A stretch of 7,822 nucleotides of DNA from a bacterium (GTDB lineage Bacteria > ARS69), in contig JALGZO010000463.1 of assembly GCA_025774865.1 (NCBI GenBank), positions 1 through 7,822 of the forward strand, given 5' to 3'. The notes beneath the pieces were generated by a model. It saw only the letters and a list, made by a program, of their open reading frames with translations, searched no databases and was not told where the DNA came from. A program made the position numbers and the translations under genes. Below, one piece after another: positions 2,606 to 5,652 of the stretch (the first letter of the stretch is position 1; every line of letters begins with the position of its first letter).

Positions 2606-3685
2606 ATGGCGCAATCCGCCCTTGCGCCGCCGCGATCCTTCGCTCAGATTCCGCGGATCCTCGCCCGACTCTGGAATGTGAGCCACACCATCGACGCACC
2701 GGTCACCCACTCCCCTCTGCCGATTCTCGCTCTCCGCGGCGCCATCGGGGGGCTCCTGATGGGCCTCGCGAATCTCGTCCCGGGGATCTCCGGCGGGACG
2801 ATGCTCCTGGCCGCCGGCGTCTACACGTCGTTCATCCGGGCCATCGCCGAGGTCACGACCCTGCGCTTCCGGGCGGACTCCCTGGCGATCCTCGGATCGG
2901 TGGTCGTCGCCGCCGTGCTCGCGATCCTGCTGCTCGCAGGAACGATCAAGACCCTCGTCGTCGAGCAGCGCTGGATCATGTACAGCATCTTCATCGGGCT
3001 GACCCTCGGGGGTATCCCGGTGATCTGGAAGCTGGTCCGCCCCGCCCGATCGGGAACCTGGGTGGGCGCGGCGATCGGCTTCGCGGGCATGGCGGGCCTC
3101 GCCCTCGCCCAAGCGCAAGGGACGGGTGCCGCCGGGAACGGCGCGAGCGGCCCGTTCCTCCTGTTCCTCGCCGGACTCGCGGGCGCGAGCGCCATGATCC
3201 TCCCCGGCGTGAGCGGAGGCTATCTCCTCCTCGTGCTCGGCCAGTACGTTCCGATCCTGTCCGCGATCGACCGCTTCAAGGTCGCACTCGGGGCCGGCGA
3301 CACGGAAGCGGTCGTGCAGATCGGGCTCACGGTGGTGCTCCCGGTCGGGCTCGGAGTCGTCGCGGGAATCGTCGGGGTGAGCAATCTCCTGCGCTTCCTT
3401 CTGCGCCGCTACGAGAAGGTGACCCTCGGCGTTCTGCTCGGCCTTCTCGTGGGAGCGATCGTCGGACTCTGGCCGTTCCAGCAAGGGGTCGCACCGGAGA
3501 TCGGGGACGTCGTGAAGGGGCAGGTCGTGACGGCGGAGACCCTCGCGACGCTCGACGCGGAGGATTGGCCGACGAAGTTCTTTGGGCCGGCGAACTCGCA
3601 GATGATGACCTCGCTCGGGCTCATCCTCGCCGGGTTCCTCGCCACCTCCATGATCTCGAAGATCCGGGGCGACGAGCCTGATTAG
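2606..3685 (+). CDS. popT: DUF368 / PopT-family polyprenyl-phosphate transporter
   Basis: Predicted polytopic inner-membrane protein of 359 aa. DUF368 proteins (PopT) are reported to return undecaprenyl phosphate, the lipid carrier for cell-wall and surface-glycan synthesis, to the cytoplasmic face. The two family motifs are NLVPGISGGTMLLAAGVY (56-73) and MILPGVSGGYLLLVLGQY (197-214), an internal pseudo-repeat matching the duplicated, inverted architecture. Hydrophobic segments lie near 40-56, 93-117, 123-142, 151-170, 183-198, 238-258, 271-290 and 334-350. A soluble stretch of about 45 residues (291-335), likely a loop, precedes the last membrane segment. The ATG at 2606 has AAAGG roughly 9 nt upstream; the first 35 residues are non-membrane, and GTG at 2678 is an alternative start. 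The final TAG (3683-3685) overlaps the stop of the convergent channel gene. The family call is firm; the substrate comes from family knowledge. Confidence 0.9.
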   Translation: MAQSALAPPRSFAQIPRILARLWNVSHTIDAPVTHSPLPILALRGAIGGLLMGLANLVPGISGGTMLLAAGVYTSFIRAIAEVTTLRFRADSLAILGSVVVAAVLAILLLAGTIKTLVVEQRWIMYSIFIGLTLGGIPVIWKLVRPARSGTWVGAAIGFAGMAGLALAQAQGTGAAGNGASGPFLLFLAGLAGASAMILPGVSGGYLLLVLGQYVPILSAIDRFKVALGAGDTEAVVQIGLTVVLPVGLGVVAGIVGVSNLLRFLLRRYEKVTLGVLLGLLVGAIVGLWPFQQGVAPEIGDVVKGQVVTAETLATLDAEDWPTKFFGPANSQMMTSLGLILAGFLATSMISKIRGDEPD

Positions 3686-4692
3686 CCGACGAACCGCAGC
3701 GAGCCGAGCAGCAGCAAGAAACAGACGGGGAAGACGATCCGGGCGGCGGAGTCCACCCGGTCCACCGTCGCGGTACGATCCTGGCGCATCAGATACGCAC
3801 CGGCCGCGACCGTGACGAGGGCCGCGGCGACCAGCACGGTCGACCCCAGCAGCAGATAGTCGATCCGCGTCAGGTACGGCAGCTTCGGGACGAGGCTACC
3901 GACCATGAATCGATAGGCGATCAGGGTCAGTACTGTCGTCACGCCGACGTTCGTCCGGATGTTCACGACGCGCGGATCGATCCAGAAGGCGATCCAGGAC
4001 ATTCCCACGATGAGGATCAGCGGAACCAGCATCTGAACGACGTAGTACTCGACGAACCGACGGGCCCCGATACGCGCGGACAGGCTCGAAAGACTCAACC
4101 CGGGAATGGGGTCGAACAGGCCGACCTCGACCTGGAGCTCCCCGATTTCCCAGTCGGTGATCGCGAGCTCGGCCGACCGAGCGGCCGCCACTCTCGCCGA
4201 TTCGACCAGGACCACTTCGTCGACGGTGGTGCCGTAAACGACGAGCCGGATCTCCAAGGTCTGCGTATCCATGGGAAACCGGCTGAGCTCGAGCGACGAG
4301 GCGAACGTCCCGATGAGGCGCTGCCGGTAGGTCACGGTACCGTCCGGTTGGATCTCGACCTCGTCCGGAAGCTTGCTCGTGGCGTCCCGCTCGTTGAACA
4401 CGACGATGTTCGGCGTCCAGACCTTGTCGCCCGGGACGACCCGCACTCGTTCCCCGGTCAGCCTCGGATCCTTCCACCTCGCCAGAATGAAGACGTCGGC
4501 CTCGAACGCTTCATCCTGGTCAATCACCTTCATGAGGTCGAGCAGGAAGAAAGAGACCTCGACTCGGGTCGGGCTTTCCCCCGGGGGCCGCTCGCTGGAG
4601 ACGTCGGGGACCTGAGCGATCCCCTGGGGAGCAGCAGCCGAAAGCAAACCGAGAGACAATCCGGCGACGACGAGAGCCTGAACGCGCATCAT
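3682..4692 (-). CDS. Pentameric ligand-gated ion channel (Cys-loop receptor superfamily, GLIC/ELIC-like)
   Basis: Bacterial relative of nicotinic, glycine and GABA-A receptors, 336 aa. A signal peptide (about 1-26) leads to a periplasmic beta-sandwich domain (about 40-210), then four membrane helices near 213-238 (M1), 244-265 (M2), 277-301 (M3) and 317-334 (M4). Signatures are RWKDPRL (72-78), VWTPNIVVFN (91-100), the Pro-loop SRFPMDTQTL (137-146), the M1 proline P224 in QMLVPLI, and the M2-M3 loop VPKLPYLTRID (268-278). The two loop cysteines of animal receptors are absent, as in other bacterial members. Aligned to ELIC, the pore-facing M2 residues are N248 (2'), T252 (6'), L255 (9'), A259 (13') and F262 (16'). 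The M3-M4 linker is short, so there is no large cytoplasmic domain. Ligand and ion selectivity are unknown. The start has GAGG 5 nt upstream of the first of two tandem ATGs. It is the last gene of the surE cluster, 12 nt after the barrel-like gene. Confidence 0.95.
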   Translation of the reverse strand: MMRVQALVVAGLSLGLLSAAAPQGIAQVPDVSSERPPGESPTRVEVSFFLLDLMKVIDQDEAFEADVFILARWKDPRLTGERVRVVPGDKVWTPNIVVFNERDATSKLPDEVEIQPDGTVTYRQRLIGTFASSLELSRFPMDTQTLEIRLVVYGTTVDEVVLVESARVAAARSAELAITDWEIGELQVEVGLFDPIPGLSLSSLSARIGARRFVEYYVVQMLVPLILIVGMSWIAFWIDPRVVNIRTNVGVTTVLTLIAYRFMVGSLVPKLPYLTRIDYLLLGSTVLVAAALVTVAAGAYLMRQDRTATVDRVDSAARIVFPVCFLLLLGSLRFVG

Positions 4693-4704: not shown

Positions 4705-5652
4705 TTAGAAGTAGTATCGCAAGTTCAGCAGGAAATTCGTCGCGGCGAAGGTGCTCTCGACATCTGTCTGCTTCAGGGTCGATACGGTCGTCTCGATTCC
4801 CAGATGGAAATCCCGACGGCCCGTGTAGTTGACGCCGAACGTGCCCGAGTGGATCCCTTTCGCCACGTCGGCCCCCCCCTCTGGAAAGGAGTCGTAGTCG
4901 TAGGCGAGCGCGAGGCCGAGCGGCACTGCCTTGAGCGGAAGCAAGTCGAAGTCTCCGGCCACGCCGCCTCGGAAAACCGTCTCATTCTCGTCCACGTCCG
5001 AAACGGCCTTCGCCGAACCGACCTCCACGAAGCCGCTCGCGCCGAGCCAGGCCGTGACAGCATGGGCCGCGGCTACCGCGGCCGAGAAGCGATGGATGTC
5101 CGCATCCTTGACCAAGGAGTTGTCCTTGGTCAGCCCACCCGAGTCGACCACGCTTTGCGCGAACCCGAAAAAGTCGAGGCCGTAGACGTTCTTGCGGGAG
5201 ACGGTGCCGAGGATCGCGACCTGGGAACTCTCCCGCTGGAGCACGATTCCCTTCGCTTGAAACTCACCGCCGTACACCGACGTGAGCCCGTCGGCGAGCA
5301 CTGATTGTTCGTCGATGCCGACGCGCCCGCTTCCGGAGAGCGAGAGCCGGAGCGCCCCCCACCCCAGGAGATTCTGTTGATACTCGAACTCGAGCGAAAA
5401 GAACGCGAGGTCGCCGACCAGCGTTCCCAGGGTGTCGCCGCCGGTATCGAGGAACGGAGCTTCGAAGCCCGTCGCCACCCCCGCTCCCGTCGCGGTCCGG
5501 ACGTGCGTGGTGACGAACGGATCCGGAATCCGCCGCACGGGCTGGAACTGGTGTTCACCGAGAACCCGCCGCTCGGAGCCATCGGCGACAACCGACTCGG
5601 TCAGGCAAACCGCGACCGCAAGCACCAGGTTCATCCACGTCCGAACAGACAT
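4705..5652 (-). CDS. Secreted, probable outer-membrane beta-barrel-like protein of unknown function
   Basis: I do not recognise this family. The 315-aa product has a signal peptide with hydrophobic core at about 8-18 and a likely cleavage after VVA at residue 23. The rest is rich in Gly, Ser and aromatic residues in alternating strand-like stretches (83-92, 97-107, 188-212, 244-254, 270-288). It ends in NFLLNLRYYF; a terminal Phe with alternating hydrophobics is a typical outer-membrane barrel C-terminus. The cysteine at residue 16 follows Val, so no lipobox is present. The frame is open upstream to 5730, but the ATG at 5650-5652 has AAGGGAG 5 nt away and puts the signal peptide at the N-terminus. 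The coding strand holds a run of eight G (4872-4879) and a perfect 10-bp inverted repeat (5109-5132). The gene lies 29 nt after pcm and 12 nt before the channel gene. An outer-membrane location is inferred; a periplasmic beta-rich protein is the alternative. Confidence 0.7.
   Translation of the reverse strand: MSVRTWMNLVLAVAVCLTESVVADGSERRVLGEHQFQPVRRIPDPFVTTHVRTATGAGVATGFEAPFLDTGGDTLGTLVGDLAFFSLEFEYQQNLLGWGALRLSLSGSGRVGIDEQSVLADGLTSVYGGEFQAKGIVLQRESSQVAILGTVSRKNVYGLDFFGFAQSVVDSGGLTKDNSLVKDADIHRFSAAVAAAHAVTAWLGASGFVEVGSAKAVSDVDENETVFRGGVAGDFDLLPLKAVPLGLALAYDYDSFPEGGADVAKGIHSGTFGVNYTGRRDFHLGIETTVSTLKQTDVESTFAATNFLLNLRYYF

Follow-up and report, generated by a model that had tools for sequence, protein, structure and literature searches.

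Such pentameric ligand-gated ion channels (pLGICs) of prokaryotes as have been characterized in the literature covered here are cation-selective or presumed so, and the latest family survey could assign a biological role to none of the unicellular members (PMC4795631). In GLIC, the proton-gated cation channel of Gloeobacter violaceus, E35 acts as the key proton sensor (PMC5760087), D32, D122 and R192 form the coupling triad (PMC10997623, PMC5760087), and R77, R105 and E181 make up a carboxylate site (PMC7336382). From the charges in the pore-lining helix M2, both cation- and anion-selective prokaryotic members were to be expected (Tasneem 2004, PMC549065). Selectivity in prokaryotes is nonetheless not safely read from the motif at -2' to 0', which is insufficient outside animals (Jaiteh 2016, PMC4795631), and we found no functional demonstration of an anion-selective prokaryotic pLGIC in the accessible literature. 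A preliminary description of the locus studied here had remarked that few such proteins are characterized and that their roles are mostly unknown, in line with the published record (PMC4795631, PMC549065).

The window, by which we mean the whole stretch of DNA analysed, is a complete contig of 7822 bp (C467), and on its reverse strand lies an ORF of 336 aa with an ATG start (3682-4692), present in the ORF listing exactly as the preliminary description gave it. That description took the product for a bacterial pLGIC and proposed a profile search as a check, and both Pfam models were significant and above their cut-offs (PF02931, E 6.9e-19, 68.6 bits against 26; PF02932, E 5.9e-11, 43.5 bits against 28.1). 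The top PDB sequence match was the GLIC-GlyRa1 chimera 4x5t (9e-42), with GLIC itself at about 1e-34. An AlphaFold monomer model, built from an alignment of 17 sequences, reached a mean pLDDT of 89.6 and runs from a helix at the N-terminus through a beta-sandwich (residues 42-212) to helices at 214-237, 243-265, 276-303 and 307-334; searched with Foldseek against the PDB, it matched chains of GLIC, GlyR and GABA-A at a TM of about 0.8. The beta-sandwich and the four membrane helices read from the letters alone are thus both in the model, and the absence of a four-helix bundle, which had been named as grounds against the call, was not what the prediction returned. Agreement of this degree lies well outside what chance would give.

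The product is a bacterial pLGIC, a genuine relative of the neurotransmitter-gated channels, and in its identity and gating anatomy as a channel subunit, setting aside the question of anions, we have high confidence. By its scores it is homologous to the subfamilies TIGR00860 and NF033918 of NCBIfam and stands outside both, being below their curated cut-offs (148.2 of the 280.2 bits required and 122.8 of 500, respectively). Inspection of the whole ORF found no Cys-loop disulfide in the extracellular domain (ECD), the single cysteine sitting in M4. As the fold model is a monomer, a pentamer is predicted through homology, and, with no second copy of the gene in the assembly, the pentamer would be homomeric.

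The subunit (all parts on the reverse strand) begins with a probable signal peptide region (aa 1-27, 4612-4692), a putative assignment read from the hydrophobic N-terminus alone, where a helix is predicted at 2-18 and followed by a low-confidence linker. Next comes the extracellular, that is periplasmic, beta-sandwich domain (aa 34-212, 4057-4593), matched by PF02931 at 34-166 and with AlphaFold strands from 42 to 212. Alignment to GLIC locates in it the Pro-loop FPMD (aa 139-142, 4267-4278), with D142 at the position of D122 of the coupling triad, and E61 (4510-4512) at that of the proton sensor E35, along with D58 at that of D32. By the model, M1 spans aa 214-237 (3982-4053), M2 aa 243-265 (3898-3966, the model being joined here by prime numbering: 2' N248, 6' T252, 9' L255, 13' A259 and 16' F262), M3 aa 276-303 (3784-3867) and M4 aa 307-334 (3691-3774), the M3-M4 linker having just 3 residues; the M2-M3 loop, aligned as PKLPY, occupies aa 269-273 (3874-3888). 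P140, D142 and the pre-M1 R212 are invariant across the window and 16 relatives (alignment A1), as is P269, and the alignment leaves the triad complete in the window as D58-D142-R212. The Pro-loop (F139-P-M-D142) and the M2-M3 loop (P269-K-L-P-Y273) are therefore as intact as the preliminary description had them; its phrase "complete pLGIC signatures" stands for every hallmark tested here, but it overlooked the missing acidic ring at -2'/-1' of the pore.

Taken together, we propose that the gene provides one subunit of a homopentameric Pro-loop ligand-gated channel of the inner membrane with its beta-sandwich toward the periplasm, an orientation that we infer from the N-terminal export signal and from homology. 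The trigger would be a small solute that binds, or a proton taken up near E61, upon which the triad of the beta1-beta2 loop, Pro-loop and pre-M1 region (D58-D142-R212) would move against the M2-M3 loop (PKLPY) and so unlock the hydrophobic gate that L9' and F16' form. The gating residues are present; the motion would be that of GLIC and ELIC. Several of the proton-relevant residues of GLIC are replaced (E222 by N244, H235 by L257 and E243 by G265), and D52 stands at the place of E26, for which reason we regard proton modulation of the channel as possible, without a confident prediction. A GLIC-type carboxylate site was considered and rejected, in that R105 alone is kept (as R125) while R77 and E181 are lost, and on account of these two losses no ligand is named.

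The main departure from the described channels lies in the pore. Counted from L9', the M2 helix reads N-2' I-1' R0' T1' N2' V3' G4' V5' T6' T7' V8' L9', and the stretch from -2' to 2' (N244 I245 R246 T247 N248, 3949-3963, reverse strand), by prime numbering and alignment, contains no acidic selectivity ring. The filter acid of GLIC is E-2', and we take the acid to be E-1' both in ELIC and in the animal cation receptors. The acidic ring at -2'/-1' by which the cation-selective type of GLIC, ELIC, DeCLIC and nAChR was tested for is absent, with N and I at these positions. Since the intracellular mouth lacks that ring (N-2' I-1' R0'), cation selectivity of the GLIC or ELIC kind is improbable for this pore. 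Compared with the GlyR/GABA-A-type motif [P]A[R/K] at -2' to 0', the window has R0' and no acid, with N-I instead of P-A.

This feature extends beyond a single gene. In a maximum-likelihood tree of 25 sequences, whose sampling was steered by similarity to the window and which includes neither DeCLIC nor sTeLIC, the window falls into a prokaryotic clade of 10 with a support of 99/97, and neither GLIC nor ELIC belongs to it. Published reference sequences of GLIC, ELIC and the animal receptors were used in the comparisons; those of GLIC, GlyR and GABA-A gamma2 agree with PDB alignments, and those of ELIC, nAChR, 5-HT3A and GABA-A beta3 are assumed to be right. The members besides the window are L002, L036, L037, L038, L042, L057, L058, L069, L070 and L076, L042 being a fragment assigned by its membrane domain. 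No acid occurs from -2' to 2' in nine of the 10 clade members of the tree, and, with the fragment, the acid-free state is found in 10 of 11 inside the clade, whereas of the 20 sequences beyond it 5 are acid-free (Fisher p 6e-4, uncorrected for relatedness). On the tree the acid/no-acid label changes 4 times, against a mean of 8.6 for shuffled labels, and just one of 500 shuffles was as low. L069, L070 and L076, which were retrieved once the pattern was known, are likewise acid-free; L070 and L076 are near-identical, so that these amount to about two independent confirmations and not three.

It is tempting to read the clade, the window channel included, as anion-selective (or non-selective) prokaryotic pLGICs, a tentative proposal from sequence that we place somewhat below an even chance; against it speak the animal motif, [P]AR where NIR stands here, and the clade member L036, which has E-2'. 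The competing view of an ordinary cation-permeable bacterial pLGIC, in which other acids, in the ECD vestibule or the lateral fenestrations, set the selectivity and the missing ring has little effect, comes in our judgement close to an even chance. Published accounts make GLIC, ELIC and DeCLIC cation-selective, lateral routes for cations have been proposed in DeCLIC and ELIC (PMC9897478, PMC12637682), and the ring is also missing in five of the 20 sequences outside the clade. However, all known cation-selective members have an acidic filter (PMC9897478), the outer M2 positions 19'/20' of the window are neutral too (G, S), and the absence of the ring in 10 of 11 members marks it as a clade-wide trait, not as drift in one gene. 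On the anion reading, a pore without the acidic ring may pass anions such as chloride, and the same would hold for most of the prokaryotic clade.

Relatives of the gene were detected in 18 species out of a sample of 369 taken within a single gammaproteobacterial class, in 6 of 386 genomes of a broad sample (the window's genome included) and in 8 of 44 genomes in the phylum of G460, with identities to the window of at most 38% over most of the length; a scan of named genomes found a gammaproteobacterial relative as the only one. Such sporadic occurrence is ordinary for pLGIC genes, and their neighbours vary from locus to locus. Spread by phages or plasmids was considered and set aside, as tblastn gave no match and viral contigs had no match by sequence. 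Separately, an entry of the BFVD from an environmental Megaviridae sample (A0A5J6VL22) has a predicted full pLGIC fold (TM 0.76, 12% identity, E 2.9e-21). Among the other loci, three small gammaproteobacterial genomes (L040, L041 and L043) have a site-2-protease-like membrane gene and then the pLGIC in the same order, and at L050 (2483-4708, forward strand) the pLGIC carries a periplasmic binding protein domain (PF13458) at its N-terminus, a combination on record since 2004 (PMC549065). Inside the clade, the pLGIC of L057 (4445-6397, reverse strand) has an N-terminal extension of about 330 residues, in which no Pfam domain was detected and whose motif AVFRDNGVLICEKP is reminiscent of a degenerate HAD-type phosphatase. 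At L037 (4042-6076, reverse strand) a gene for a ZnuA-like periplasmic metal-binding protein overlaps the start of the pLGIC and adjoins ABC-transporter-like genes, a setting that hints at a metal, or something linked to a metal, as the ligand. G460 and G780 each contain two divergent clade genes, which makes heteromeric assembly conceivable there.

A contig of only 7822 bp in a draft metagenome-assembled genome (4.7 Mb in 785 contigs, with a completeness of 92.65% and a contamination of 8.3%), encoding a membrane domain that resembles animal receptors, raises the question of contamination or of eukaryotic DNA having been binned with the genome, which we consider extremely improbable. The MerR, SurE, PCM and APT genes of the contig have counterparts of 61-75% identity in the same order, together with both tRNA-Pro genes, in three genomes of the same family, and these conserved flanks argue against a stray, contaminating contig; moreover, the protein has no cysteine loop and its ECD is GLIC-like. 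In these three genomes MerR, SurE, PCM, tRNA-Pro(CGG) and APT are consecutive, with M24 too where the stretch reaches, and the block of uptA, pLGIC and a putative outer-membrane protein (OMP) is missing between PCM and the tRNA. Marks of insertion around the three-gene block were sought, and neither convincing direct repeats nor a G+C break was seen. The pLGIC may have arrived with the block between tRNA-Pro(CGG) and pcm, or the block may have been kept solely by this lineage. At the contig end (2-463, reverse strand), next to the M24 peptidase gene, lies an RNA 2'-phosphotransferase of the Tpt1/KptA family (PF01885).

Of the two other genes in the block, uptA (2606-3685, forward strand) encodes an undecaprenyl-phosphate translocase-like membrane protein by Pfam (PF04018); it is convergent with the pLGIC gene and downstream of it, overlapping its 3' end by 4 bp, and a homologue sits elsewhere in a same-family genome. 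The OMP gene (4705-5652, reverse strand) lies upstream, 12 nt from the pLGIC start, and the two are probably co-transcribed. Its product of 315 aa, ending in RYYF, had no match in Pfam, NCBIfam or the PDB, and its AlphaFold model is unreliable (pLDDT 34); a homologue 29% identical (E 5.7e-22) has the C-terminal RYYF too, and we read the protein as a probable outer-membrane beta-barrel. One could imagine that the pLGIC senses a ligand without conducting usefully, its fold signalling or buffering a solute together with the neighbouring OMP, a reading for which the 12-nt spacing, suggesting co-expression, would speak, as would the failure to find either gene in the other four genomes of this small phylum, which include the three with the conserved flanks and of which two are incomplete (67% and 82%). 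We hold it to be unlikely, because the pairing was not seen in any other pLGIC locus read, no pLGIC accompanies the OMP homologue of G698 on the 5-kb contig where it lies, and the window retains every gate and coupling residue of a working channel. For the former two reasons a conserved pLGIC-OMP operon was rejected as well.

The family itself is known (PMC549065, PMC4795631); our addition is a supported clade, little studied so far, whose members consistently lack the acidic ring. A clade without the cation filter, and with the nearest prokaryotic membrane domains to GlyR/GABA-A in our sample, supplies specific proteins for testing whether anion selectivity predates animals, and it could give structural work an anion-channel counterpart of GLIC.

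Within this clade the members are 31-38% identical to the window over most of the length and share with it the M2 core LT[LI]I[AF][YF], whereas the proton-sensor position is E in the window and Q in the six members compared (L002, L036, L037, L038, L057 and L058). When three clade members were searched against the PDB, the best 60 matches were all GLIC or chimeras of it, and GLIC appears to be the closest solved prokaryotic relative of the clade, a distant one. With GLIC the window has in common the fold (TM about 0.80/0.86), the best ECD match, the coupling triad, E61 for E35 and the M2-M3 PKxPY; it differs in belonging to another clade, with about 27% identity, in having N, G and L for E-2', E19' and H11', and in its M1-M2 loop, which is 2 residues longer. 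ELIC, the amine-gated cation channel of Erwinia/Dickeya, resembles the window in fold, in the hydrophobic gate L9'/F16' and in T6' and A13', but it belongs to another clade, has Q at the proton-sensor position where the window has E, and possesses what we take to be an E-1' filter that the window lacks.

The likeness to GlyR and GABA-A, the anion-selective Cys-loop receptors of animals, resides in the membrane domain: searched alone against the PDB, it found GlyR/GABA-A-type chains in all of the best 60, whereas the ECD alone placed GLIC on top. No acidic ring is present in either, and R0', G4' and T6'T7'V8'L9'T10' are held in common, while the window is without a cysteine loop and an intracellular domain and has NIR, not PAR. 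Membrane domains inside the clade scored 133-202 against GlyR and those outside 40-162, and values of 202 for L070, 201 for L076 and 182 for L058 rule out that the resemblance is private to the window gene. The membrane domain of GLIC, a cation channel, reached 162-178 against animal anion receptors, so that the likeness belongs in part to the family at large. A sister relation between the window and the animal anion receptors was likewise rejected, for in the membrane-domain tree the animal receptors, cation and anion types alike, form one group (80/85), apart from the window. The GlyR resemblance is no evidence of recent exchange with animals; it is a trait of the clade and probably an ancestral similarity.
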